Source: Coemansia sp. RSA 487
Taxonomy: Eukaryota > Kickxellomycota > Kickxellomycetes > Kickxellales > Kickxellaceae
Direction: 5' to 3'
DNA: 64,000 bases
Assembly: GCA_027577595.1 (NCBI GenBank)
Contig: JANBRJ010000030.1
Location: forward strand, 1-64,000
Part shown: positions 1 through 45,206 of the stretch, in pieces
Numbering within the stretch: position 1 is the stretch's first letter
Layout: every line of letters begins with the position of its first letter
Made by a program: the position numbers and the translations under genes
The notes under the pieces: generated by a model
Seen by the model: only the letters and a program-made list of their open reading frames with translations
Database searches by the model: none
Told to the model about the DNA's origin: nothing

Positions 1-12
1 CAGAGCACAGTT

Positions 13-414
13 TCAACCTACCTGATTGCGAAAGTTGTTTTGTGGCGGCGTTGCAGACGCACTGCTCATGAGTCTAAAGTGCTGTTGGATGCCCCTGTTA
101 ACATCCTTAAGCTCGCGGAATTCCCTCTCCATCCTTTCATCGCGTGCTTTTTGGTCGTCGCGCATTTCCTGAAACTGCCTGGCAAGGTTTTGGTCTCGCT
201 CCTCTTGCCTTCTGTCTCGCTCCTCTTGCCTTCTGTCCCGCTCTCTGTCTCGCTCCTCCTGCCTTCTGTTCCGTTCTCTGTCTCGCTCCTCTTGCTTTCT
301 GTCCCGCTCCTTTTGATGCTCCATAAAGCTGTTCTGCGATTCAACAAGGCCAGCTATTGACCGGAGCAAAATTTCCAAAGTTGAGCTTGGCAATTCATTA
401 CCCGTATTCGACAT
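13..414 (-). CDS. Charged coiled-coil protein, probable first exon, gene continues off the left edge
   Basis: The frame opens at an ATG at 414 and encodes about 130 residues: an ordinary N-terminus, then a long run of Arg/Glu/Asp/Gln repeats of the type RDRRQEE (residues about 35-95), predicted to form a single charged helix or coiled coil. The frame can end at a TGA at 13-15. A strong splice donor (CAG then GTAGGT, intron beginning at 21 and reading left) falls exactly between two codons, so positions 22-414 may instead be a phase-0 first exon. A TATA-like stretch lies at about 465-472. I recognise no family; the helix repeat alone carries no function. It could be a host gene or the N-terminus of an element-borne protein. 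Confidence 0.45.
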   Translation of the reverse strand: MSNTGNELPSSTLEILLRSIAGLVESQNSFMEHQKERDRKQEERDRERNRRQEERDRERDRRQEERDRRQEERDQNLARQFQEMRDDQKARDERMEREFRELKDVNRGIQQHFRLMSSASATPPQNNFRNQVG

Positions 415-2762
415 TGTGTGGCAAGACTAAATGAAAAAGTAATGTTGTTGGTAAAGTGTTGAAAGGGGTATATTCCAATGCAAAAAGTAGTAGTGAAACT
501 CAAACTTGAACAAGACAGAAAAAGAGAGAAAAGAAAGGCTGGTGGAAAAGGCACTGAAGCTTGTTTATTTTATTTTTTGTGGGCCAATCAATCACACTCG
601 ATTTTCCGCAGTTTTATTTTTTTTCTTTTGTGCCTTGATTTCACATACAGCATCGGCTGGCTCATGTCTTTGCCAAGCCAGAAGAATGACTGACTGCCGA
701 GCCAAAAAATGGCTTTGTTGAGACTGCCGATTAGATGGCATGTGTGAGAAAAGCTTGGTGTCCTATCACTGGTATAGCCATTAGAAGCAACAGAAAGCTC
801 TAGCTCCGCCACCCTCTGTTGTGGGTATCTGGCTCCCTTGCACTTGCGCTGCTGATACTTGCTGCTCGCAATTTTGGATGCTCGCAGATCCCCCAACTTG
901 CCAAGTCTCCAAGCTCGCGGTTGCGCTGAGATGCATAAGCATCTTCATGGTAGAAATGCCCACAGATGCCGAAAGCCACACTGTTTGGTTCTCAGTCGCT
1001 GTGCAAGACAGCGAAGCGCTAATCGGACCATGGCAGCCGCTTCCATTCTTGCTCTGCACCTGCGCTGTCCATATATTTGGCAGTTTTGGTGCTTTTACTA
1101 GCACACACTAGATTGCCTCCACTTGATTGAGCATTCCGCTGTGAAGCCACAGTCCACAACAGGTGTTTTGCCAGTGATAAAAAGTTCAAAACGCTATACA
1201 TGCTATCCTGGGATACTACGGCAGTACCGTCTGCTCTGTACAAGTACTTGACATTTGATGGAAGCAGAGGCTTTTCCAGCGCACTCGTCGGCATTGGTCA
1301 TCCCACATCCATACACAAAAGGCACAGCCAAGTCGATCGAACAAGTGCCCAGCAGCGACCTTATCCACGCAGCGGCTGCCGTATAAAGTATCAGCCAACG
1401 TGAAAATAAAAGCTTTATAGTTCTGACGAAGCAAGCAACGAGCTTACAAAAAGCTCATCTGGAAATCTCGCAGAAATAGCAGCGAATCAGCTAGTGTTGG
1501 TAGCATCAGCTGTTTGTGGTTGCTATTAAACTGAGCTCACGCCTGCGGCTGTGTGCTCTCTTGATGCCTGACTATCCAGTAACGTCGTGACCCATCATTT
1601 TCAGCTGGAAGCGCCACATTCAAGTCAAACGCAGATGTCTAAATTACAAATGCAAACATGAAAAGTACAGGAAATAAAAGGAATAGAAAAGTAAATGAAA
1701 TGCCAAAGCGGTAAATAAGCATTCTTTATTAGCCTACAAAACAGCTCACTAATGACTAGCAGTTTCCAGGCGGTCCATATGATCACGCATCCAGCCAAAT
1801 AGACCGTCAAAGCTCTCTGCAATCGCAATTTGACAGTGTGTAGTCCTCTTTAGCATCATTACAAAGCTTGGATTGTTCATAGGGGCCAGAATCAAGGGTA
1901 ACGGGACAAGAAGACCTAATATAAAACAACAAATATTGTGTTGCATTGGTAGTTTGTGAAACAGAGTGTTTTGCACTCTACAGATGTGCTTATAACTGGA
2001 ATATCGTTCTGGCACAGCTGCCGCTTCAACCCTTCAATACTTTGTGGTGCATCTGGAATTATAGTGGTTGTTGAAACAGATATGGCGCCTTTAGCGATTG
2101 CAAACAAAGAAACTGTGCTACTACGGCTATGGTGAAATCCAAGTCGATTGAAACTGAAATAAGCAGATGCTCTATACAAACAGACAATTCAGACAAAGCT
2201 TTTGACGCTATCATTGCATGCCCCTCCAATGCGTGCATGTTTCTGGTAAATGCAAGACTGAATAAACAAAGACGTAACCCAAATGGAACTACAACCCAGC
2301 CTTTCAATCGTAGAGGAATAGGCAAAATAATTGGGATTCGTGTCCCCTTTCTCGGATAGATAACGACAAAAGCAGAGCTGCAATGTTTGCGGGCACGATA
2401 TATAATAACCAAATGTAGCGACAAAGGACAAGCATAAGCCTTTGCTTAATCAGTGCTAGCATCAAGTGCTTGATGATTTTAGACAAAGGGAACAAAAATT
2501 CTGTTTGTGAAAACAGACTAGAATTAATTTTGTATGAATAAAAGTATATTATAAAAGCTGAAGAGATCAAGAGAAGAAAAGACTTGTCTACCTGCAATGA
2601 CATGACATGCTGTTAAATAATGGTAAATATACATCCAGTAATTAGATTTTGTATCACATTGGCAATAATAGACAGAATTATAATTAGAACTGTTAATGTC
2701 TATTTTGATTTTTTAGCATAGTTTAAATATATATAGTGTGAAATATATGGCAACACAGCTCA
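415..2762. other. Gene-poor stretch with decayed coding-like patches
   Basis: No single convincing gene. A GC-richer patch at about 780-1440 is open in several frames on both strands but has no long frame and no motif I know. Minus-strand open segments at about 1749-2430 look coding-like in composition and are broken up; one piece near 2040-2090 faintly resembles helicase motif Ia of RecQ proteins. From about 2430 rightward the DNA is AT-rich and runs into the repeats listed separately. Confidence 0.5.
2519..2670 (+). repeat. Dispersed repeat Y, copy 1
   Basis: This 150-bp segment matches 11165-11320 in the same orientation with scattered substitutions. Both contain a TATA-like stretch (TATTATAAAA) followed about 75 bp later by an ATG opening a short frame that starts MVNIHPVIRF in both copies. 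A third, shorter match lies inverted at 9601-9655. Several differences within the short frame are synonymous, but the frames end differently, so coding is doubtful. Confidence 0.7.
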
Positions 2763-2909
2763 TGCAATAATAATTCACTATGTAACTTGCACACTGGGTC
2801 ACAATCAAAAGTTTAATTGCTGTATTGTTTGTATGGCTACAAAAGCCAGACTGTTGATGAAAAATAAAGACAAGGAAATTTAGTTCTGTCAAGACTTTTA
2901 TTTGTAACA
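2763..2909 (+). mobile_element. Solo LTR, family B short form (147 bp)
   Basis: An LTR fossil with TG start and CA end, 147 bp, the same length as the copies at 7467-7613 and 11478-11624. It carries the family TATA block (GGCTACAAAAGCC here) and an AATAAAG polyadenylation-like signal before the TTTGTAACA end. Flanking pentamers GCTCA and GTTCA match at four of five bases, as expected for an old target duplication. No internal region is attached. It is old and decayed. Confidence 0.75.
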
Positions 2910-3300
2910 GTTCAATCACTGAAAGCTGATTTAATGTAATGAGGCAGATTTGGTGGGCCATGTGACGAGTTTACCATGGACCTAGGATAAAATAACACAG
3001 AGTAGTTATTTGATATCTTATTGCTCAAACTAGATAAGAAAAAAGAAAAGAAAACAAAATCCTTTTGCCTTCCTTCGGAAGGCAATAATCCACGGGCAAT
3101 GCTGCCTTTATATGTAGCAGAGAGCCGCTACATGTTGTGGGCTATTTCATTGTTAGTGTTTAGTGGCTGTGCAAACCCATTGTCATGGGTTTGCCTTGCA
3201 TACGGCCATCACACTAGCGTGACATGCCAAATACTCCTTACTTGAGCTGTATTTGTATAGTTTAAGATATCCCCCATACTACTTGTAAGAATTTGTATTT
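2910..3300 (+). repeat. Dispersed repeat X, copy 1, split by an LTR A insertion
   Basis: Positions 2910-2960 joined to 3225-3300 align without interruption to 11050-11160 (shared landmarks: GAGGCAGATTTGGT, then TATAGTTTAAGATATC). In this copy the alignment is broken by the LTR at 2961-3224, flanked by GGCCA and TGCCA; in the other copy the site is empty. X was therefore present before the LTR inserted. Confidence 0.75.
2961..3224 (-). mobile_element. Solo LTR, family A (264 bp)
   Basis: This LTR fossil lies in reverse orientation. Read on the minus strand it begins TGTCACGCTAGTGTGA and ends in CGTCACA, with a TATA box (ACATATAAAGG), a hairpin (CAAACCCA/TGGGTTTG) and a second hairpin formed by GCCTTCC/GGAAGGC. 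It aligns along its length with 8939-9200 and 9351-9600. The target duplication GGCCA/TGCCA and the empty site at about 11094 confirm the ends. TG/CA ends, 5-bp duplications and size fit Ty3- or Ty1-like LTR elements; no internal genes remain to say which. Old. Confidence 0.85.
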
Positions 3301-4493
3301 GGATTGTAATACATGTCAGTTTCTGAGCTCTGGAATATTGAAATCGAGTTTAAACCCATACATGTTTTAGTATTGTTCCCAACTCATTGCTTTTTTCAAA
3401 AAATTATAAATATTCTCAATGCCAATAATTCCAAGGCACGCTTGTTATTTGGTACTAATAAAGCACTAAGCATAGTTGTAAACTACACTTGCATAAATGA
3501 GTTTTACTGATTGTGTGCTTCAATGTTCATGGAAATTTGTGACAGTTATAAGTTATAACAGATATAAACAATACAGCTTATACGCCAAGGGTTTCATTTT
3601 GAAGCTAGACTATAACACAATGTACAAATCACAAAGAAAATCCCAACCGGACATTATCACAAGTTTAATTGCTGACATTGCATTTGACTTTAACAGTTGC
3701 TGTAATGTCATTGTCATCTGCGCTAATTGGGCTTCTCGCAATCTTGTCATATGGCATAATCGCACAAGATGCCCTTTAGCTGTTGCTTTTGGGAATCTCA
3801 TCATATGCCGAATCAATCTCTTGCAAAAAGTAGCTGGAAAGGCAGAGAGATACGTGGATACATTGCTCTCTTGGGAGACTGCATCTGCTTGTTAATCCAC
3901 TTGAGCATTTCAAATACTTTGCTACAACTCGTGTGGCAACCTGGGTGGTAAAAGCAGCAACTCTGCCATTTCTCGGCTTGATTGCTTCCTTCCTGAGCTT
4001 ATCACGAGATTTCTGGGCTGACAAGGCAATGTTGGCTTTAGTCACAGGATAATGACCTGAGCACGACTTTTGCAGTGGTGTCTGCACTGTGTGTCCAGGG
4101 CTGAGAGACAATGATCAAACCTGTGCAGCTATACCAACATTACTGAAAGTAATGCGTTTGTCGCGTTGGTTGATGGCTACCAAAGAATCAGACTGGTACT
4201 TTGGCTCTCTTTTTATTGTTCACTGGGAGTTGACAAAAGTTTCGTTTTCTCTGTCTGATGTGGCCATTGTCACAATTTGTAAATGGTAAAACGAAAAGGC
4301 AGGGTTTAAAAATAAACAAAAAGGCAAAGGGAAAAGAAAAACAAAAAGTTAAAACTATGGTCAGTGTTTATTTACTTGTTTGTTGTGTTGACAGTGAAAA
4401 ATTGCAATCAGACAAACACAGCCAATGGATTCAATCAGATGATTTTCCAAGCCAAAAAAAAAACAATCGTTCAACTTTGCTATAGGCTCTTGG
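3301..4493. other. AT-rich stretch without a gene I can support
   Basis: Open frames up to about 130 codons occur (plus strand 3497-3895, minus strand 3776-4111), but their composition and overlap on both strands look like chance or decayed sequence. I see no motif, splice pattern or promoter that would support a gene. Confidence 0.45.
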
Positions 4494-4708
4494 TATTACA
4501 TGAATAAAAAGTAATCACAAATGGAACTAAAATTTCTTTACATTTATTATAATAAAACATGGCCTTTTATAGCTGCTACAACCAAACAAAAACTATTCAG
4601 ATAATTGGATAGCATATATCGCATGCTATCCAACAATATGATCCACTTAACGCGAGTCAAGCATATTGCAATTCGGCTCTCAAATGGCAGAGCCGAATCG
4701 TTATTACA
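4494..4708 (-). mobile_element. Solo LTR, family B long form (about 215 bp)
   Basis: This LTR fossil is in reverse orientation. The minus strand begins TGTAATAACGATTCGG and contains three consecutive inverted repeats: TCGGCTCT/AGAGCCGA, an AATATG arm pair, and GGATAGCAT/ATGCTATCC. A TATA block (GCTATAAAAGGCC), an AATAAA-like signal and the family GGAACT block follow. Its start abuts the RecQ fragment at 4709. No target duplication is visible. Old, solo, decayed. Confidence 0.75.
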
Positions 4709-4851
4709 TATGCTGTAAGCTGGAAAACAAGGATTTTGCCTGCACCGGTGGGCATGATGCAGATAACATCTTTGCCGGACACATGTGTAAAGTAAATGGC
4801 ATGCAATTTGTCATTGGAACCATTAAAGAGATATTTTCTAGGTGGAAACAA
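4709..4851 (-). pseudogene. RecQ-type DNA helicase fragment (motif I region only)
   Basis: On the minus strand this piece encodes about 47 residues that include GKDVICIMPTGAGK followed by VFQLTA. This is the Walker A motif of RecQ helicases (family pattern G-[KR]-D-V-x(3)-M-P-T-G-A-G-K-S-L-x-[FY]-Q-L-P-A), with an LHAI segment upstream where the family has its Q-x-x-A-I element. The invariant Ser after GAGK is Ile here, and nothing of the remaining helicase adjoins. Both ends abut family B LTRs. It is a relic. RecQ genes of this sort are known at fungal subtelomeres (TLH genes) and in multicopy elements; which source applies is unknown. Confidence 0.7.
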
Positions 4852-4852
4852 A

Positions 4853-4967
4853 GTTCCTCTTTGACTTTATTCAGACAAAATATTGGCTTTTATAGCTGCT
4901 AAAGCCCTACGCAAAACATTTTGTAATGATGATGGCTCGACAATTCACGAGTCTGATCTCTATCACA
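4853..4967 (-). mobile_element. Family B LTR, truncated
   Basis: The minus strand starts TGTGATAGAGATCAGACTCG, carries the TATA block GCTATAAAAGCC, a GAATAAAG signal and the GGAACTTTG block, then loses the family sequence at the junction with the helicase fragment. An LTR fossil, solo and incomplete. Confidence 0.6.
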
Positions 4968-5191
4968 CTGGTAGCACCTTCAGGATTAAAAAGGTTCTAT
5001 ATAGAATCATTCAAAAGGTTGAACTTTATAATTCATTTATTATAGTAAAAGAAAATAATGCAACAAAACCAGTATATTTGCATATTTCCAAAAAAAATAT
5101 GACAAAGGCAGTTGACATAATGCAACTGCATATGTGAGTTGCTAGGGATATTGCATGCCAACAGCTAAATTACAATATCCTTCAAAAATAA

Positions 5192-5362
5192 TTACTTGTT
5201 CTTTATTTTTTTGATTATTTCCTGTGCTGCCTTAACTCCTTCCGAATTCAAAGCATATTTCCTTGGACGTGGTTGGTTACTGCCACTGCTGCTTGATCCC
5301 TTATTGCCGCTGCTGCTTGATCCCTTATTGCCACTGTTGTCTGAACCCTTATTTTCACTCAT
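5192..5362 (-). CDS. Micro-ORF, 56-aa Ser/Gly/Lys-rich basic protein (RxRKY family)
   Basis: An ATG at 5362 opens 56 codons. Residues 5-28 hold an Asn-Lys-Gly-Ser repeat (about 2.5 units of GNKGSSSS), followed by PRPRKYALNSEGVKAAQEI and a lysine-rich end. The RPRKYAL segment resembles RERKYTL in the ORF at 11928-12083 and RERKKGL at 10239-10376. A TATA box (CATATAAAAGGG, about 5470-5482) lies about 110 bp upstream on the same strand. Codons end mainly in A or T, unlike the GC-ending core genes of the window. No signal peptide or membrane segment. Function unknown; a disordered nucleic-acid-binding peptide is one guess from composition only. Confidence 0.5.
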   Translation of the reverse strand: MSENKGSDNSGNKGSSSSGNKGSSSSGSNQPRPRKYALNSEGVKAAQEIIKKIKNK

Positions 5363-5469
5363 TGCTGAACTGTATTATGCCGTTTGTTAGTATACCTGCG
5401 TTTTGGCGTTTGTTAATCTGCTTATGCTATGATGTGGAGCAAAAATGAAAAAACAACTGCCTCACCATT

Positions 5470-5482
5470 CCCTTTTATATGT
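5470..5482 (-). promoter_or_regulatory. TATA box for the micro-ORF at 5192-5362
   Basis: ACATATAAAAGGG on the minus strand, about 110 bp before the ATG at 5362. Similar boxes precede the other micro-ORFs of the island. Confidence 0.45.
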
Positions 5483-5511
5483 CCCATCAACAATTTTTCA
5501 AGCTACTATAA

Positions 5512-5605
5512 TGTTACAAATAAAAGTCTTGATGGAACCAAAGTTTCTTGTCATTATTTTTACGAACAACCTGGCTTTTGTAGCCATACAAACACCATAA
5601 AAGTC
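5512..5605 (-). mobile_element. Family B LTR, truncated
   Basis: The plus strand begins TGTTACAAATAAAAGTCTTG, then GGAACC, the polyadenylation-signal block and GGCTTTTGTAGCC. It matches the 3' part (in LTR orientation) of the 147-bp copies closely and then diverges after about 5600. An incomplete LTR fossil. Confidence 0.65.
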
Positions 5606-6160
5606 ACATATATCCCCATCATATCCACCTAGCTACCTTTCCTACTTGGAAAAAGAGAGATCCACTGCATATCCTCTGGACAAAATTTTAGAGAGAATAT
5701 AAACACATAGAACATCAATTCTATCATTAGAACCCAGTCCTAAAATATTGCACGCAAAGTGAATTTGCAATGACACAAAGAGTTTCAAAGGACGCAAAGG
5801 AATATATTCAAAGGATAAAAAGACCAAAAAGCTAGAAAGGTTATAATTGGGGATGACAGATGAAGGTACTACAAGATTGGATGGATGAATAGGTGACTTT
5901 TTGTTTTTCAATGATAGATACTTCTAGCCATTGTTATATAGCCAATAAAACAAACCAATATGAAGACATATTGTGTTGAAGAATTTTAATCTGGTTGTTT
6001 TCATATCGAATATTCAAAGTCATTGCATTATAGCCAATGGGGGTACTCCAATAGACATTTTGTTGGACAATTCAAATTCCACTGCTTGTATTCACTATAC
6101 AATACTGAATCACTAGGCGTTTAAGCTAAAAAGAATAGCAAAATTCTGTATGGAATGGCC
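5606..6160. other. AT-rich stretch, no gene seen
   Basis: One minus-strand open segment (5642-5911) has coding-like composition near its middle but no recognised motif and no clear start context. Otherwise I see nothing here. Confidence 0.4.
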
Positions 6161-6171
6161 AGTCAGTAGTG

Positions 6172-6180
6172 GTATAAATA
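6172..6180 (+). promoter_or_regulatory. TATA box for the 24-aa micro-ORF
   Basis: GTATAAATA, about 82 bp upstream of the ATG at 6262. The intervening leader is CA-rich (CTCCTCCATTACCAACCAGC), which looks like a fungal 5' UTR. Confidence 0.5.
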
Positions 6181-6261
6181 GAGAAAGGGCGTCTTGACAT
6201 TGTTAGCTCCTCCATTACCAACCAGCAACACCATTACGTTTCCTCAAACAAGCAAGCCAAG

Positions 6262-6336
6262 ATGCCTCCAGATAGACCAGTAAAGCCACCACTTCCTAGT
6301 CCTTATCCGAGACCTGTTAAGAAGCCTAAAAAGTAA
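6262..6336 (+). CDS. Micro-ORF, 24-aa proline/lysine-rich peptide
   Basis: The ORF has 24 codons beginning MPPDRPVKPPLP and ending PVKKPKK before tandem stops (TAA, then an in-frame second TAA). Eight of the residues are proline and six lysine. A clean TATA box lies 82 bp upstream, and the next LTR B begins only 15 bp after the stop. The peptide is too short for homology. The composition is that of an SH3-ligand-like or DNA/RNA-binding basic peptide, but that is only a description. It may be a chance frame; the promoter context is the main support. Confidence 0.35.
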   Translation: MPPDRPVKPPLPSPYPRPVKKPKK

Positions 6337-6351
6337 TAAATCACCACCTTT

Positions 6352-6563
6352 TGTGATAATGATTAAGCCTGCAACTTAAAATCCTAGTGAAATCACAATA
6401 TGATTGACTCTGAAAGTGAATCATATTGTTGGGAAGAATATTATATATGCTTCCCCATTATCTAGTTCAACTGTCGTAGTGTTTGTATGGCTATAAAAGC
6501 CAGGCTATTAATGAAAACAAAGACAAGGAATTTTGGTTCCATTTAAAGAATATTAATGTAATA
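6352..6563 (+). mobile_element. Solo LTR, family B long form (212 bp)
   Basis: The copy begins TGTGATAATGATTAAGCC and includes the AATATGATT/AATCATATT inverted repeat, the TATA block GGCTATAAAAGCC and GGTTCCATTT near its end. Flanks CCTTT and CGTTT match at four of five positions, supporting the ends as a target duplication. A solo LTR fossil. Confidence 0.7.
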
Positions 6564-6789
6564 CGTTTGATTATTTTTCAATATGATCTGAATGGGAAAT
6601 ATTTTTTATTATAGCATTTTAATCTAATTTAGCTATTTACATTTTAAATTATGCTGTTGCGATGGGGATATGCATGCAAATTGCATGCTACATCATAATT
6701 TGCAAGATCTAGAGCTGCTACACGTCCATTTATGAAGTGATTGTTTTCGCTATGTATGTACTGAAGGAGTTTTTCAGCTATACCCTACT

Positions 6790-7009
6790 TGTGATAGCGA
6801 TTGGGCTTGCAAGCTACGAGCCTAGAAAAATCGCAATACGATTGTCTCATAATGAGTAAATAATATTGTTAGGAACCATACAATATATGCTTTCAGTTAT
6901 CACAATCCTTTTGTTATAGAGTTTCCACGACTGTAAAAGGCATGTTTTATTTGGAACTAAACACGGGGAACTTTAGTTCCATTTTGTTCAGATTTTAGAA
7001 ACTGTTATG
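6790..7009 (+). mobile_element. Solo LTR, family B long form (about 220 bp)
   Basis: The copy begins TGTGATAGCGATTGGGC and retains the GGGGAACTTTAGTTCC block, but its TATA block is eroded. Flanks CTACT/CTACC would be a target duplication with one mismatch if it ends at 7009; the right end is less certain than the left. An old LTR fossil. Confidence 0.6.
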
Positions 7010-7095
7010 CTACCAACTGGCATATTATGATTAATGAAATAAACTCTTTCAATAGCTGACTCTAGCAGTTTGCATTCCAAGCTGCTTACCCCATA

Positions 7096-7316
7096 TGTTA
7101 TAATAAACCTTGAAACTTTACTTGACAGAACTAAAGTTCCTCTCACTTTCTTTCAAAAACAAAACATGGATTTTATGGCCATCAAAACACTACAAAGAAA
7201 GGATTGTAATAATTGGATAGCATACAGTACATGCTTCCCAATAATATGATTGGCTTGCATTGAGTCAATCATATTGCAATTCAGCTTGCATGCTGTTGAG
7301 CTGAACCATTATCACA
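7096..7316 (-). mobile_element. Solo LTR, family B long form (221 bp)
   Basis: In reverse orientation: the minus strand begins TGTGATAATGGTTCAGCTC and ends TTATTATAACA. The inverted repeats TCAGCT/AGCTGA and AATATGATTG/CAATCATATT are intact, and TGAGTCA sits at 7261-7267. No target duplication is visible. A solo LTR fossil. Confidence 0.7.
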
Positions 7317-7466
7317 CTATCTTGTAACATATGCATCTGTTAAGTGCACCACATGTTCTTGAAATGCATGAGAGGCGCGTGGCTGACACAAAAATATCCA
7401 TTAGATATATGTATTGGTTTGGCTTATGAGTAGTAATATCAAATTTGAACAAAAAAATAAGGAGGA

Positions 7467-7613
7467 TGTTACAAATAAAAGCCTTGACGGAACTAAAATT
7501 CCTTATCTTTATTTTTCATGAACAATCTGGGTTTTGTACTCATACAAAACACTACAGTAATTAAATCTGTGATTGTGACTCACCACGCAACTCGCATGCC
7601 GATCATTGTCACA
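7467..7613 (-). mobile_element. Solo LTR, family B short form (147 bp) with perfect 5-bp target duplication
   Basis: The plus strand begins TGTTACAAATAAAAGCC and ends ATTGTCACA. The flanking pentamers are GAGGA (7462-7466) and GAGGA (7614-7618). This fixes the ends and the 5-bp integration footprint of the family. Length is identical to 2763-2909 and 11478-11624; by eye about three quarters of positions agree with the latter. TGACTCA lies at 7576-7582. A solo LTR fossil of moderate age. Confidence 0.9.
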
Positions 7614-7757
7614 GAGGAGGGTAAATTACTCCAGAAATATGAGAGCACCTTCATGTAAGAATTATCCAGGGATTTCGAGGAATGTCTTCAATTAACACAA
7701 TTTTTGAGACCCACATGCTCTGCATTGTCAAAATTGATCTACAATTATTTAATCATA

Positions 7758-7928
7758 TTAACGTAGCTTATTAAGTTCCCTATTTATTGATCTTATTCTT
7801 GCATCAATCTTACTCAAAAGTTCGATATATTGCATATTTCCTGCATCACCAAGTAATAGGTTAGAAAGACGTTTTTTTTCATCAGACGCTTTTTGTAAAG
7901 CATCTTCTAGTTTTGATATTGAAGGCAT
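7758..7928 (-). CDS. Micro-ORF, 56-aa helical protein
   Basis: The frame runs from ATG 7928 (MPSISKLEDALQKASDEKKR) to TAA at 7758. An upstream in-frame ATG at 7970 would add 14 residues. I prefer 7928 because the TATA box (TTATATAA, about 8003-8010) then lies about 80 bp upstream, as for its neighbours. The sequence has heptad-like Leu/Ile spacing throughout (LEDAL, LSNLLL, IELLSKI, IRSINREL) and should be a short helical hairpin or coiled coil. No family recognised. The 171-nt reading frame equals that of the ORF at 5192-5362, probably by coincidence. Confidence 0.45.
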   Translation of the reverse strand: MPSISKLEDALQKASDEKKRLSNLLLGDAGNMQYIELLSKIDARIRSINRELNKLR

Positions 7929-8010
7929 TATGTTTATATATTGGGATATTGTCTGTTGATGATCGAACATGACGGAAAAATGGACAATAGCTTGTTCGGC
8001 TTCTTATATA

Positions 8011-8560
8011 ACCACCAACTAGGTACACTCATGAAATGTGGCACTTTTATGATGCAACCAAAAAACCATCTAAAAATGGAACATCCACAATGGACATCAT
8101 ATTATCATTGAACCTAATATCCACTTCTAAATATGACTTAATATAATACATTACGTTTAGAAAACATATAATCGCTGTGCAATTAGAAATATACAGGCTA
8201 CATATAGGATTCTATTTTCAATTGCAGGATAATGGTAATAATATCAATATTTTGCAGAGCACATATACAAACAATGCTGCATAAGAAATATCCCTGATTC
8301 TCATTTAGTAAATAATTCAGCTATCAATCATTTGTTATATTTATATTCCTATTCAATCTTTTATATTAATAATTCATCCCATATTGCAGTCAATTAATAA
8401 CACGTATTAACAGAAAGGTAAATATAGTAACAGAAGCTATATAATTAAAACTAATGGTAATTCTAAAAATATCATTTGGAAAGATGCAGGTAGAAATAAA
8501 AGTGAACATTAATAATTTTTGAAGAGTATATTACATTAAGAACAATCCAGCACATACTTC
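8011..8560. other. AT-rich stretch, nothing recognised
   Basis: Very AT-rich DNA with stops in all frames. It ends in the promoter of the ORF at 8647 (TATAAAAAG at about 8566-8574). Confidence 0.5.
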
Positions 8561-8646
8561 TGTAATATAAAAAGCGAAGAAAATTTTATAGCCATTTTAT
8601 TTTTGCTGCTATGCAACAGCATTAACCTAACCTCTATACATCCAAA

Positions 8647-8886
8647 ATGGGTATAACTGTGATATTTATGCACCATGCTGGTGCTGCTAACATGGCATTT
8701 ACTCATCCTGGTGATCCTAATAAGCAGAAAGATAGGAAGGCAGCTGTAAGGGCTTTACTAGCTAGAAGAAGAGAGACTATGGTAAACAACAACGAATCTG
8801 AAGAAGAAATTAAAAGAGCTATAAAACATATTATAATTGTTGGATATCAAGCTGGAGCGATTCCCAAAAGGACAGAAAGAAAATAG
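8647..8886 (+). CDS. Micro-ORF, 79-aa basic helical protein
   Basis: An ATG at 8647 opens 79 codons; a second in-frame ATG at 8692 (MAFTHPGDPNKQKDRKAAV) would give 64. A TATA box at about 8566-8574 lies about 80 bp before the first ATG. The central part is strongly helical and basic (KDRKAAVRALLARRRE), followed by an acidic NNNESEEE stretch and a second helix (EIKRAIKHIIIVGYQAG). Family A LTR begins 53 bp after the stop. No family recognised; it is the longest of the island's small ORFs and has balanced, protein-like composition. Confidence 0.5.
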   Translation: MGITVIFMHHAGAANMAFTHPGDPNKQKDRKAAVRALLARRRETMVNNNESEEEIKRAIKHIIIVGYQAGAIPKRTERK

Positions 8887-8938
8887 AATTCAGAGAATCC
8901 AAGAAGGAATATGGATAAATACGGCTATGTAAGTCGAA

Positions 8939-9200
8939 TGTCATGCTGGCGGGCTGTCGTATGCAAAGTTGGCTCATTGTTATGGGTTTGCACAACCACT
9001 AAATGTTAACACTGCAATAGTACACTATACGTAACAGCTTCCTATTACATATAAGGGCAAGCTTTCCCGTGGTTATTGCCTTTCAGATAGAAGACATGAA
9101 TTCTTATTCATTATTTTTATTTTATTAAGATTAGAGGAATAAGGAAACACCTATAAAATACTCCACTATTTTATTCTGGATCCATGATAAATCCGGCACA
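8939..9200 (+). mobile_element. Solo LTR, family A (262 bp)
   Basis: The copy begins TGTCATGCTGGCG and ends CCGGCACA. It aligns with 9351-9600 and, inverted, with 2961-3224 (shared TATGGGTTTGCACAACCACT and ATTACATATAAGG blocks). It is the most diverged A copy. Flanks TCGAA/CTGAA agree at only three positions. A solo LTR fossil. Confidence 0.75.
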
Positions 9201-9224
9201 CTGAAACTAAACAGTAGATTAAGA

Positions 9225-9350
9225 AATCTATTGCAGGAATATTCTGTAAGCAGAACTGAATTTCCTTTCACTTTCATTAATAAACAAAACATGGCTTTTA
9301 TAGTCTCAAACATTATAAAGGAATGTTTACAATAATTGGGAAGCATATAT
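9225..9350 (-). mobile_element. Family B LTR, truncated at a family A LTR
   Basis: The minus strand keeps the TATA block (ACTATAAAAGCC), the GAAAGTG region and the TTATTGTAAAC segment of family B, then stops exactly where the A LTR starts at 9351. Its missing half is not found beyond 9600, so the junction is not a simple nested insertion. An LTR fossil. Confidence 0.55.
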
Positions 9351-9600
9351 TGTCACGCTAGTGTGAGTGTCGTATGCGAGGCAAACCCATGACAATGGGT
9401 TTGCACAGCCACTAAACGCTAACAATGCAATAGTCCACTACATGTAACGGCCCCCTGTTACATATAAGGACAGCGTTTCCCGAGGGTCATTGCCTTCTGA
9501 GGAAGGCAATGATTTTTCTTCTTATATCTAGTTTGAGGAACAAGATATCGAATAATTAATTTGTGTTATTTTACCCCGGGTCCATGGCAAATCCGTCACA
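9351..9600 (+). mobile_element. Solo LTR, family A (250 bp)
   Basis: The copy begins TGTCACGCTAGTGTGAG and ends ATCCGTCACA. It has two perfect hairpins (CAAACCCA/TGGGTTTG and CATTGCCTTC/GAAGGCAATG) and the TATA stretch TTACATATAAGG. Left flank TATAT and right flank TCTTT do not match: the left neighbour is a truncated B LTR and the right neighbour an inverted Y repeat, so an ectopic exchange or deletion is likely. A solo LTR fossil. Confidence 0.8.
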
Positions 9601-9655
9601 TCTTTTCTTCTCTTGATCCATTCTTCAGTTTTTAAGAATATACTTTTATTCATAC
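9601..9655 (-). repeat. Dispersed repeat Y, inverted partial copy
   Basis: The reverse complement matches 2525-2580 and 11195-11250 (GAATAAAAGTATATT, then CTGAAG, GATCAAGAGAAG). It is cut at its 3' end by the family A LTR. Confidence 0.6.
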
Positions 9656-9746
9656 TAAAATCTGAAAGGATAAGCCTTTCATATGACAGCACACTAGCGC
9701 GACACCCAATGCATTAACACTGCACATTTTCCTTTATGGCACAAAT

Positions 9747-9925
9747 TGTCATGCCAGTTTTAAATATCTATCACAGGAATATGATATCCTATTCTTGATA
9801 AGTGATTCCTGAACGTTGTTATGATCATTGGTGGCGTATGGCTATAAAATAGCCTAACACTCATACCATTTCTTCATGTCGTCCTTAGTTTCTGTTTTAA
9901 ATATACATTATACTCCTACGTAACA
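9747..9925 (+). mobile_element. Candidate third LTR-like element (179 bp)
   Basis: The segment begins TGTCATGCCAG, has GGCTATAAAATAGCC about 75 bp before its end, and ends CCTACGTAACA. Its last 45 bp and the DNA just beyond (to about 9945) match 11385-11450 in inverted orientation. Because the match crosses the proposed end, the boundaries are unproven. If real, it is another LTR-class fossil. Confidence 0.35.
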
Positions 9926-10010
9926 GTCCTAGCGTCTACAGTATAACACAAATGATAATAAATGAATGCATATAAAAGACAATTATTTATTTTTATAATC
10001 TGCCTTTTAG

Positions 10011-10106
10011 ATGTATTTTTCTTTAGCTAGTTTTTTATTTTTGTTTATAATAAGTATAAGAGAAGACACAGAACAAAGACTTAGTAAATTTGTTACTCCT
10101 TGTTAG
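10011..10106 (+). CDS. Possible 31-aa signal-peptide-like micro-ORF
   Basis: The frame starts MYFSLASFLFLFIIS, a short hydrophobic segment of signal-peptide type, followed by 16 polar residues. A TATA box (CATATAAAAG) lies at about 9969-9978. It is short enough to be chance; the promoter is its only other support. Confidence 0.2.
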   Translation: MYFSLASFLFLFIISIREDTEQRLSKFVTPC

Positions 10107-10178
10107 GCGTCCCAGATTTTGCATCCACCAGTAACATATTGTGACTCAACTCAGGCATCGGGCTGCTATCACAATCTC

Positions 10179-10235
10179 TGTAATAATGCTTCAGCTCTGC
10201 AGCCTGCAAGCTGGGTCGCAATATGATTGGATTAA
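10179..10235 (+). mobile_element. Family B LTR, 5' fragment
   Basis: TGTAATAATGCTTCAGCTC to CGCAATATGATTGG matches the start of the long-form B LTRs (compare the minus strand of 7260-7316). The fragment ends within a few bases of the stop codon of the micro-ORF at 10239-10376. A second, minus-strand B start (TGTGATAGCAGCCC) lies just left, ending near 10172. An LTR fossil. Confidence 0.5.
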
Positions 10236-10238
10236 CCT

Positions 10239-10376
10239 CTAATTCTTATCTTTGGTCAAGGCGGCAGCAGCATCTTTAGCAATCTTTTGTTCGTGTTTTG
10301 CTTTATCTCCAACTAAGCCTTTCTTTCTTTCACGTGTTTTACCAGCTTTTTCCCCTGAATTCTTGGTAGTACTCAT
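10239..10376 (-). CDS. Micro-ORF, 45-aa lysine-rich protein (RxRKY family)
   Basis: The ATG at 10376 opens 45 codons: MSTTKNSGEKAGKTRERKKG, then LVGDKAKHEQKIAKDAAAAL and a lysine-rich end. It aligns with the ORF at 11928-12083: both begin MST, have RERK-x-x-L-x-GDK in the middle, and end in alternating Lys, Asp and Asn. A TATA box (CTATAAAAAGC, about 10446-10455) lies about 75 bp upstream on the coding strand. About a quarter of residues are Lys; none are Cys, Trp or Tyr. Function unknown. Confidence 0.55.
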   Translation of the reverse strand: MSTTKNSGEKAGKTRERKKGLVGDKAKHEQKIAKDAAAALTKDKN

Positions 10377-10445
10377 AGTTGTATTTGTTTAAAATCTAGG
10401 AAGCAAGCTACTGGGTTAGTAAAAAAATGTACCCCAAATGTTTTG

Positions 10446-10455
10446 CTTTTTATAG
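10446..10455 (-). promoter_or_regulatory. TATA box for the micro-ORF at 10239-10376
   Basis: CTATAAAAAG on the minus strand, about 75 bp upstream of the ATG. Confidence 0.5.
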
Positions 10456-10459
10456 TCCT

Positions 10460-11040
10460 GGAGAGCATGTGATATGAATTTGTTTTATATATGCCTAGGT
10501 GTCTAATAATAGGAAAACCCAATTGGTGGAATGGCCCCACGTAATGCAAAATTAATTAATTGGAAATACTTTATTTTGTAAAAAGATTTTAATTAGACAT
10601 TTCATTAAATGTTGTCATGTTAATGTTTCTTTGAAAAAGACAGAAATGACAATGCTTATAACATGAAGCATTTCTAATGATGACTGCTATTTGTTGATTT
10701 ACCAACTCTTTGAACAATACGAACAAGCAAGGGCTAATTAGCATTTGCTTTGTTGTTGCAATCTAATGACTCATCAAATTGCACAGTTTTGTAAGTCTAT
10801 ATGTTTTACTTGAATGAAATTAAGCAATTTGTATAGCCATTGGAGATTAGTTCTAACCCAGAAATTTTACAAAATGTAATAAAATAAAGGAGGGTTTGAC
10901 AATTCACTGAAAACATCTTTGGCATCCGCTTCAACTTTCAGCGATACTCATTGAATGCACATATTCAGCGACTGGAGGGAAATGAAGCTTGGTATAGATG
11001 TCATGTTCTATGGTTTAAATGTGCAAATCTATTACAACTT
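10460..11040. other. AT-rich stretch, no gene supported
   Basis: One short plus-strand open stretch at about 10900-11075 has protein-like composition (IRFNFQRYSLNAHIQRL) but no start and no known motif. Otherwise I see nothing. Confidence 0.4.
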
Positions 11041-11160
11041 CTGGTGCTTTTCAACTATCAGAAGTTGATTTAATGTGGCGAGGCAGATTTGGTAGGCCAA
11101 ACCCTCTCCATTTGTGTTATATTTTTATAGTTTAAGATATCTTCCATTGCTATCTTGAAA
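11041..11160 (+). repeat. Dispersed repeat X, copy 2 (empty site)
   Basis: This copy matches 2910-2960 plus 3225-3300 and reads straight through both points at which the other copy carries an LTR. It is the pre-insertion form of the family A target. Confidence 0.75.
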
Positions 11161-11164
11161 ACTA

Positions 11165-11320
11165 GAACATTAATTTGATTAAAATTTTATTTTTGTATGA
11201 ATAAAAATATATTATAAAAACTGAAGAAGAGACCAAGAAAAGAAAACGCCTGTCTACCTGCGATAAAATGGTATGCTGTTAAATAATGGTAAACATACAT
11301 CCGGTAATTAGATTTCGTGT
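11165..11320 (+). repeat. Dispersed repeat Y, copy 2
   Basis: Matches 2519-2670. Here Y follows X, whereas in the other copy Y precedes X, so the two blocks have been rearranged or belong to a longer tandem unit. Confidence 0.7.
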
Positions 11321-11477
11321 CACGTTTATTGTTCAAATTATGACATTCAGAATGCTAGTTTGTGTGGACTTTTGTTACACTATTGACGCTAGGGCTGTTA
11401 CGTAGGAGTATTCAATATCTTCTTAAAACAGAACTCAGGATGACATGATAAATATGTTATGAATCTTAGACCATTTA

Positions 11478-11624
11478 TATTACAAATAAATGTCTTAACG
11501 GGACTAAAGTTCCTTGTCTTTATTTTTCATGAATAATCTGGCTTTTGTAGCCATACAAACAGTACAACAATTAAACTTGTGATTGTGGCTTAGCTTGCAA
11601 CTTGCATGCTGAGTCACTATCACA
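11478..11624 (-). mobile_element. Solo LTR, family B short form (147 bp) with perfect 5-bp target duplication
   Basis: The plus strand begins TATTACAAATAAATGTC and ends CACTATCACA, flanked by ATTTA at 11473-11477 and ATTTA at 11625-11629. It contains the TATA block (GGCTACAAAAGCC on the minus strand) and TGAGTCA at 11610-11616. A solo LTR fossil. Confidence 0.9.
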
Positions 11625-11927
11625 ATTTATATAGTTGTAGAGCCAAGAGTTATAATAATATTTCCTTAAATCACATGTCAAGGATATGATATATCATATA
11701 TCATATATCGTATATAATATGTCGTAGTATGTCTTGTTGCTGTATGCAAAGCTGGAATGACAGCTTTCTCTCTGATTCACTATTCCCTTCTAACTTAACA
11801 ACCTGTTAGTATTTGTTGGTAGATTTTTTATCTTTGTCTAAAATTTATGTTTACAATGTAGTAATGCGTTTATTAGCATAATAAAAATGAAAAGGGCTTA
11901 GTATCCTATTATTTCATCACAAATTTA

Positions 11928-12083
11928 TTAACTTTGGTTGTCCTTTTTATCTTTACTGTTTTCTGCTTTATTTTTGCATTTTTCTCCCAGGTTCCTTCTT
12001 TTATCTCCTGCTAGAGTATATTTTCTCTCACGCTGTTTAGCAGGTGATGTATCCTTTTTTGATAAATCCTCAGCAGTGGACAT
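11928..12083 (-). CDS. Micro-ORF, 51-aa lysine-rich protein (RxRKY family)
   Basis: ATG at 12083 opens 51 codons starting MSTAEDLSKKDTSPAKQRER, then KYTLAGDKRRNLGEK and a Lys/Asp/Asn-rich end. It is the closest relative of the ORF at 10239-10376 (shared MST start, RERK-x-x-L-x-GDK core, similar length and tail). A TATA box (GTTATAAAAAGAG, about 12170-12180) lies about 90 bp upstream. Strongly basic and probably disordered. The antisense frame on the plus strand is also open but is hydrophobic and lacks a promoter, so I treat it as a shadow. Function unknown. Confidence 0.55.
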   Translation of the reverse strand: MSTAEDLSKKDTSPAKQRERKYTLAGDKRRNLGEKCKNKAENSKDKKDNQS

Positions 12084-12183
12084 GATGGTAATGGAGTTAG
12101 AAGCGGTGCTTTATAGAATAAATGTGTGTGGGTAGATGGCAGGATTAGTTAAATTTATGTCAGCTCCTCTTTTTATAACTTTT

Positions 12184-12680
12184 GAAAACCGAGTAGGCTG
12201 TAATTGTAGCAGCTTTCTTTAATATACCAAAAGTCTTCTTTTTGATTAAAAAAGAAGCAGCATAATAAAGTAAAGCCCATTGCTTTTCTTACTTGCCAAG
12301 AGCATCCATTTTGTGAAAGGGAATTTGTACAATACATCTCTTTGTAAATGACGCTCTTTTGTCTTGCCAGATTTCTGCTTTTCGTTGAAAGTGTGTACAA
12401 AGAGTCAAAGTTTTCTGTTAAAGTTTGCATTGGCCATTCAATCAACAACTGGTGTGGAAGCAAAAACAAAAGTGTGGCTAATCGGGTGATCACAATCATG
12501 TGGTCAGTTGAGGAAAGCAATGGAGGAAAAGCAAGGGAACGGAGAACATCAACAAATGCAACAAGGAAAAAAGGGTCCTTCCTTTTCTCCTCTTTTATGT
12601 CACTAGTTAGCCTACTTTTTTCCCCGGCTTTTTTGCATTTTAAAAATTTTGGCAGCATTGGCGCATAACGACAATTTGCA
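12184..12680. other. Spacer and promoter region of the UBTD-like gene
   Basis: Transition from the AT-rich island to the gene-dense region. No gene seen; the last 150 bp should hold the promoter of the gene at 12681. Confidence 0.4.
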
Positions 12681-44836: not shown

Positions 44837-45206
44837 GTAAGTACTGTTGCACTCGATGGATGCGATCATGTTCTGGATGGATTCGCACGCTTTTTTTTTG
44901 GAGATACGAATCCATCCTTGTCTGAATGCACAATGAAAGATTGTATTGAGCCCCACACCTTCTCTTTTTTTGGGATGGAAATTCGAATCGTGAAATTGCC
45001 AGCAATTTCACATATTTCCTTTGGTGCTTTTGTTTTAAACGCCTCGCCTCCCAACCTGTACTCCAATTCAAAAACAAATTTGCCTTCAAGCTCTCCATAT
45101 TCCATGGAAGAGGAGGACACTACAGCGAAAGAGAAACTGGGTCATTTTTATTTATAACTTTCCTCTCCCTTGTGTGTGTATTTTTATTTCCTATTGCCAC
45201 TGGTAG
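44837..45206 (+). other. Probable 5' UTR intron of RPS22
   Basis: A perfect donor (GTAAGTAC) at 44837 lies 394 bp before the RPS22 ATG. Downstream there is a branch-like TATAAC at about 45151-45157, a pyrimidine-rich tract and an AG at 45205-45206 (alternatively 45224-45225). Ribosomal-protein genes of fungi often have leader introns. The segment contains two strong hairpins described separately. Confidence 0.5.
44875..45012 (+). ncRNA. Candidate intron-hosted structured RNA
   Basis: Two perfect inverted repeats: GGATGGATTCG (44875-44885) with CGAATCCATCC (44907-44917), and GTGAAATTG (44990-44998) with CAATTTCAC (45003-45011), the second followed by an ACA. Two stems with a terminal ACA are loosely H/ACA-snoRNA-like, and yeast RPS22B hosts snR44 in its leader intron. 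I cannot identify an H box or a target, so this is tentative. Confidence 0.25.

Follow-up and report, generated by a model that had tools for sequence, protein, structure and literature searches.

Putative TATA-driven lysine-rich microprotein genes, and a wider class of TATA-led small open reading frames, in AT-rich islands of Coemansia sp. RSA 487

The lineage-specific genes (LSGs) of Neurospora are reportedly short. They are reported to be clustered with HET-domain genes and in telomere-proximal compartments (PMC10684091). The HYP hyper-variable effectors of potato cyst nematodes are described as differing through allelic variation and motif rearrangement (PMC11228951). In this study, a window of 64,000 nucleotides from Coemansia sp. 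RSA 487 (GenBank assembly GCA_027577595.1, contig JANBRJ010000030.1, here C30, positions 1 to 64000) was analyzed against the whole genome of 17.8 Mb in 184 contigs. The window carries three small open reading frames (ORFs), ORF1, -2, and -3, which, on the basis of sequence comparison, are probably genuine single-exon TATA-driven microprotein genes that form one basic, mostly disordered family within a broader, fast-evolving class. As far as searched, the family is specific to this Coemansia lineage, and, among the papers listed on AT-rich regions, microproteins, orphan and TATA-led lineage-specific genes, subtelomeres, and Coemansia or Kickxellales genomes, no title or opening line of an abstract describes such a class in Coemansia.

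A sequence-only reading of this DNA had proposed a family of three minus-strand frames of 56, 45, and 51 codons, and ATG-to-stop translation reproduces all three at their positions (Table 1). The MS start, the basic motif with its polar pair, and the tail rich in lysine, asparagine, and aspartate after the motif are present in every translated frame, the motif being RPRKYAL..SE in ORF1, RERKKGLVGD in ORF2, and RERKYTLAGD in ORF3, with RERK-x-x-L-x-GDK common to the last two, as had been noted. In all three, the ORF's own ATG is the first ATG from 25 bp past the start of the TATA box onward. The boxes had been placed 75 to 110 bp upstream, which is correct for ORF2 (78 bp) and ORF3 (94 bp), and that of ORF1 (117 bp) lies slightly beyond this range. 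The frames had also been said to match no known family, and Pfam indeed gave no match above its curated cut-off for ORF1 to -3, nor for 20 other small ORFs, in a scan that took in neither C134, C112, C155, nor C15.

Table 1. Features of the C30 window discussed in the text
Feature	Position	Strand	Description
ORF1	5192..5362	-	56 aa, MSENKGSDNSG...RPRKYAL...KIKNK (translation); paralogue on C134
TATAAAA of ORF1	5473..5479	-	117 bp upstream of ATG; conserved in C134 copy
ORF2	10239..10376	-	45 aa, TRERKKGLVGDK (translation); best pair with ORF3
TATAAAA of ORF2	10448..10454	-	78 bp upstream of ATG; second TATAAAA at 113 bp
ORF3	11928..12083	-	51 aa, QRERKYTLAGDK (translation)
TATAAAA of ORF3	12171..12177	-	94 bp upstream of ATG
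C30d	8647..8886	+	79-aa TATA-led ORF; absent from the sequence-only reading
TATAAAA of C30d	8566..8572	+	81 bp upstream of ATG
Coiled-coil-like ORF	7758..7928	-	56 aa, MPSISKLEDALQKASDEKKRLSNLL..., TATATAAG 82 bp upstream
Shared segment	4707..5510	-	804 bp; corresponds to C134:4239-4988; promoter, ORF1, and helicase fragment
Helicase fragment	4660..4866	-	69-aa open frame with RecQ-like motif I
Dispersed repeat	11480..11624	-	~145 bp, downstream of ORF3, palindromic end, within a longer dispersed repeat

Both strands of window positions 1 to 12600 contain 18 ORFs of 40 to 60 amino acids when counted from the first ATG, and a TATA box (TATAAA or TATATAA, 60 to 120 bp upstream) precedes three of the 18, exactly ORF1, -2, and -3. 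ORF2 and ORF3 have the highest BLOSUM62 score of the 153 pairs (54, the runner-up pair scoring 36), with a BLASTP E value of 2e-4, and their score was matched by 12 of 3,000 residue shuffles from which MS was excluded. A profile of ORF2 and ORF3, searched against 1,123 ORFs of the window and the fetched loci, ranked ORF1 first after its own members, with an E value of 0.11. Relative to non-TATA ORFs, codon-position bias lies at the 99th percentile in ORF2, at the 94th in ORF3, and at the 85th in a further candidate on C112. A 2-Mb strand simulated with a third-order Markov model yielded 236 ORFs of 40 to 65 amino acids starting with MS (16 with a TATA box, one with the motif, and none with both), a null that somewhat favors the finding because the motif, RxR[KR]xx[LIM], was derived from the three frames themselves. 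The combination of TATA box, MS start, and motif in ORF1 to -3 exceeds chance.

ORF1 has a paralogue of 49 amino acids on C134, within the 804-bp segment, which is 78% identical across both contigs. The promoter, leader, first 12 codons, start, stop, and TATA box correspond between the copies, and the remaining coding part is more divergent, with RPRKYAL in ORF1 and RKRRDAM in the C134 copy. The window and the fetched loci (285,828 bases, the loci overlapping) were also scanned for frames that begin with MS and carry a motif of the RxR[KR] type, using a regular expression without the hydrophobic last motif position, and the sole further TATA-bearing match is the 59-amino-acid C112 candidate, with an MS start, RERRDAI, and a TATA box 86 bp upstream. 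The end of C112 matches window positions 616 to 1063, 1170 to 1416, and 4496 to 4714, in the same order. The MS start, the motif, a lysine-rich tail, and TATAAA 55 to 130 bp upstream occur in all five of ORF1 to -3, C134, and C112, a circular count, as the same features served to find or define the members. Similarity above shuffles is seen for ORF2/ORF3 and ORF1/C134, is weak between ORF1 and ORF2 or ORF3, and is absent for C112. Judged by sequence, the proposed lysine-rich family appears supported for ORF2 and ORF3 and moderately supported for ORF1 and its C134 copy, with C112 placed by its layout.

When the motif is relaxed, the fetched AT-rich loci, an uneven genome sample obtained via repeat matches and contig ends, hold further TATA-led small ORFs of about 40 to 105 codons with a protein-like appearance; 23 TATA-led ORFs of 42 to 104 amino acids were catalogued, including ORF1 to -3, C134, and C112. 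A beta-hairpin/helix group has two members in tandem on C58, one or two on C59, and one each on C111 and C134. The tandem pair on C5 (C5a/C5b) is 44% identical, a DSGY-ended family with TATATAAAG upstream occurs on C155, C177, and C33, and singletons lie on C15, C43, C56, C87, C88, C91, C126, C145, and C176. The DSGY members (L010 on C155, L061 on C177, and L122 on C33) keep an MSxNGxGNN-like start and a DSGYxSxxGN-like end, with a variable middle. A profile of three hairpin ORFs finds the C111 ORF at an E value of 6.6e-4 and the second ORF of C134 at 0.019, and five of its six best new matches (E up to 1.7) are TATA ORFs, compared with 87 TATA-bearing ORFs among the 1,123 overall; the groupings other than the hairpin group are weaker. 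C30d was modeled by AlphaFold from its single sequence as beta-beta-alpha-alpha-beta (mean predicted local distance difference test [pLDDT] score of 70, predicted template modeling [pTM] score of 0.52), and the predicted model fits the hairpin/helix plan; fold searches with it against PDB and the viral BFVD gave 44 and 327 matches, respectively, at E ≤ 10, and none in either at E ≤ 0.001. The region had been described as a gene-empty island, which it would not be if the class is real, because C30d and the coiled-coil-like ORF, both TATA led, lie inside it.

The association of TATA boxes with small frames was also seen in counts over these loci. In a count made without the four seed ORFs (ORF1 to -3 and C134), a first ATG open for at least 40 codons follows TATAAAA in 27 of 159 cases, whereas seven control words taken together give 74 of 800 (P = 0.004). 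The TATA ORFs (n = 54, seeds included) are more hydrophilic (P = 0.001) and richer in G at the first codon position (P = 0.003) than 363 others from the same loci. Among the long ORFs of the window hand-picked as ordinary genes, one of 22 has TATAAA 55 to 135 bp upstream.

Other small frames were encountered in the same loci. Two genes on the minus strand of C58 (L050, at 1118 and 2351) are tandem small genes whose proteins are 36% identical and whose 5' flanks are 96% identical. On C54 (L096), a TATA-led lysine-rich frame starting MSTTKERKRTVL is open for at least 75 amino acids to the end of the piece and lacks R.R[KR]..[LIM]. An 83-amino-acid ORF on C82 (L063) and the 56-amino-acid ORF at window positions 7758 to 7928 are coiled-coil-like and, by eye, may be related helical hairpins. 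L060 and L063 also carry visibly related frames beginning MPNLE[RK][IV] (72 and 68 amino acids) in AT-rich loci, and TATAAA and TATATAA are absent from the scanned stretch of these frames. A 79-amino-acid frame at window positions 44869 to 45105 (minus strand), within a second AT-rich stretch and with a TATA-like box 51 bp upstream, stands beside sequence resembling the promoter side of an ordinary gene and was left out of the class. At the contig edge, a 133-amino-acid frame with Arg/Glu repeats (MSNTGNELPSSTLEILLRSIAGLVESQN..., positions 13 to 414, minus strand) may continue through a GTAGGT donor-like site past the end of the contig.

Protein-level selection is supported in the sister families, where the proportion of nonsynonymous differences (pN) is below that of synonymous differences (pS) in both old pairs, namely, C5a/C5b (pN 0.351, pS 0.598; P = 0.01) and C177/C33 (pN 0.331, pS 0.684; P = 1e-4). 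ORF2 and ORF3 have a pN of 0.37 and a pS of 0.70, but in an alignment made at the protein level. The corresponding values are 0.126 and 0.170 (P = 0.59) for the recent pair C155/C177 and 0.350 and 0.163 (P = 0.03) for the recent pair C58a/C58b. Identities of the coding sequence, 5' flank, and 3' flank are 0.872, 0.947, and 0.972 for C155/C177 and 0.763, 0.964, and 0.744 for the C58 pair, the near 3' flank of which is badly gapped and becomes almost identical again further downstream. The coding part changed more than the promoter side in two of the three recent pairs, for which gene conversion of the flanks or cassette exchange is equally possible as diversifying selection. In a simulation that placed the observed substitutions and gap blocks at random, with gap lengths from an assumed list, the probability of an intact frame was 0.021 for ORF1/C134, 0.011 for the C58 pair, 0.086 for C155/C177 (both gap blocks of which are multiples of three), 0.0036 for C5, and 0.015 for C177/C33, or 0.049, 0.019, 0.138, 0.009, and 0.027, respectively, with gap blocks halved; the test is biased by the way in which several of the pairs came to light, namely, through both frames being open.

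Further observations weigh against the interpretation of ORF1 to -3 as genes of one family within a TATA-led class. The pN (0.201) and pS (0.241) of ORF1 and its C134 copy are about equal (P = 0.79), and the identity of their coding sequences (0.879) is like that of their 5' (0.868) and 3' (0.860) flanks. The selection on protein proposed by the sequence-only reading is supported in the sister families and not in the reading's own frames, and ORF1 shows no codon-position signal (44th percentile; C134 copy, 58th). By pairwise alignment the link of ORF1 to ORF2 and ORF3 is weak, because 185 and 700 of 3,000 shuffles (MS excluded), respectively, reach its scores. C112 is not alignable to ORF1 to -3 or C134 above shuffles, and its membership is therefore by layout and motif only; in addition, its own profile misses the other family members in the 1,123-ORF set. 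AlphaFold, given a three-sequence alignment, predicts ORF3 to be mostly unstructured, with one helix at residues 25 to 41 (pLDDT 62, pTM 0.17). Within the wider class, C30d has an upstream ATG 36 bp before its start, which stops after four codons, and the coiled-coil-like ORF would reach 70 amino acids, with a very short leader, if read from an in-frame ATG that lies 42 bp upstream of its own. The control word AAAATAT alone reaches 20 of 123, nearly the TATA rate, and some of the frames that it leads resemble genuine small proteins by eye. Genome-wide, the pattern TATAAAAR N65-95 ATGAGY has 48 matches versus 32 for the reversed control, a modest excess, and none of the 46 matches besides ORF2 and C112, which include the lysine-rich C54 frame, carries R.R[KR]..[LIMVF]. 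Profiles of ORF1 to -3 with C134 (seven candidates) and of ten small ORFs, namely, C30d and nine ORFs from fetched loci (306 candidates), which took in neither the C5 and DSGY families nor C112, found no match at E ≤ 1 among 5.8 billion proteins; this absence of homologues is weak evidence, because such genes are seldom predicted.

These points bear on the possibility that the frames are no more than accidental ORFs in the debris of repeats, with the motif a coincidence of AT-rich, lysine-coding sequence, which would fit the neutral-like rates of the ORF1 pair, the lack of codon-position bias in it, the weak similarity of ORF1 to ORF2 and ORF3 in shuffles, and the empty protein database searches. 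We consider this unlikely, however, as the TATA boxes single out precisely ORF1 to -3 among the 18 scanned ORFs, no simulated ORF combines TATA box and motif, ORF2 and ORF3 are significantly similar and lie high in codon-position bias, and pN is below pS in the sister families. Alternatively, mobile repeats could provide the promoter and spread the small ORFs as their passengers or accessory genes, with selection acting on the element and not on the host. They do lie among dispersed repeats, and the C58 pair, with 96% identical 5' flanks around 76% identical coding sequences, is like a cassette between repeats; yet the promoters are low copy, those of ORF1 and C58 being found at least two times each and those of ORF2 and ORF3 at least once (lower bounds, 40 of 91 candidates being scored for ORF1 and 40 of 92 for ORF3), which makes this explanation rather improbable. 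The old LTRs (long terminal repeats) described around the frames were not confirmed, short interspersed repeats and a RecQ-like fragment being seen there, although no dedicated LTR search was made. The start of an LTR-embedded gag, weighed since a TATA box with a short leader resembles an LTR promoter, was set aside, as only a single further copy of the ORF1 segment appeared in the matches that were scored and no gag or polymerase frame was seen after it. A structural RNA origin was likewise rejected: Rfam gave one match at E ≤ 1 in positions 1 to 12600, mir-315, whose 34.2 bits fall short of the gathering score of 63.

The RecQ-like fragment raises a further alternative, in which ORF1 and its C134 copy would not be stand-alone genes; each would have served as first exon to a RecQ-like helicase gene that has since decayed, and the intron would start with GTAATT on the stop codon and end in a pyrimidine-rich CCTAG ahead of the fragment. 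The fragment matches PF00270 over residues 28 to 53 with an E value of 4.5e-4, below the curated cut-off, and its best PDB matches are RecQ-type helicases (E 0.0086 and weaker). It lies about 330 bp downstream of ORF1 on the same strand and in the same duplicated segment. By eye, the stop of each copy is overlapped by the donor-like GTAATT, and the two parts would be joined in frame, although a phase match alone has a 1-in-3 chance. A genome search at E ≤ 1 gave six matches to the fragment (C30 itself, C134, C14, C52, C34, and C58), with none near ORF2, ORF3, or C112; the C14 copy has one in-frame stop, those on C52 and C34 have long, intact frames, and the C58 match is short and within a repeat-derived end. 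We regard the exon alternative as very unlikely from these sequence relationships, as ORF2, ORF3, and C112 have the layout of ORF1 with no helicase match nearby, the C14 copy has the helicase part alone in common, and the C30 frame enters a dispersed repeat beyond ~4707, which cuts the fragment off. Beside the C14 fragment (L070, ~1660 to 3180) lies a long coding-looking stretch on the minus strand, which may resemble orphan genes of the PD-(D/E)XK type known from early fungi.

The histidyl-tRNA synthetase (HisRS) of the window shares 91% identity with its counterpart in Coemansia sp. RSA 2399, the nearest named relative by this protein, 87% with that in RSA 1933, and 82% with that in RSA 1200. 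Positions 2001 to 12000 are AT rich, with a GC fraction of 0.31 to 0.38 per kb, and a GC-richer gene region then follows. Short interspersed repeats lie around the frames, and the ~145-bp repeat downstream of ORF3 matches dozens of places in the genome, 40 of 92 candidates having been scored.

If ORF1 to -3 are microprotein genes, a focused TATA promoter would produce a short transcript whose leader spans some 50 to 90 nucleotides, and translation from the first ATG would yield a small protein, in which no signal peptide is apparent by eye. New copies would come from duplications inside the repeat islands, after which the coding part would diverge quickly. Because a basic patch precedes a short helix, the lysine-rich peptide may bind nucleic acid or an acidic partner in the cell via the RxR[KR] patch and the helix. 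A role of the class in conflict or recognition may be proposed because of its fast change and its placement among repeats. More tentatively, and with less likelihood than not, the AT-rich islands could be the breeding ground of an intracellular microproteome. Its many families (disordered basic, beta-hairpin/helix, helical coiled coil, and DSGY) would have no structural relation to one another but would share one TATA-type layout, with coding parts that outpace their promoters, and the system would serve to generate diversity in some conflict, for instance, self/non-self recognition or defense against viruses or mobile elements. Genes so short and so little conserved usually go unannotated, and Coemansia annotation could therefore lack a whole promoter and protein class; by their TATA-to-ATG layout, such genes can be traced in further genomes. 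If it is true that coding parts outpace promoters, the islands would be a natural system for the birth and diversification of microproteins and for the conflict that drives them.

Among known systems, RecQ-like helicases (PDB 7a8r, Bloom helicase; PF00270) are represented at this locus by the motif-I fragment downstream of ORF1 and of the C134 copy, and they differ from the small ORFs in that the fragment lies outside the small ORF and is unmatched near ORF2, ORF3, and C112. In the DSGY family, both ends of the protein are kept and the middle varies, which is formally like the central hyper-variable domain of the HYP effectors, whereas the variation here is between paralogues, no signal peptide is evident by eye, and no host is known (PMC11228951). 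The small ORFs resemble the Neurospora LSGs in being lineage-restricted genes concentrated in variable regions, and they are unlike them in that several unrelated families here stand under one TATA-led single-exon layout (PMC10684091).

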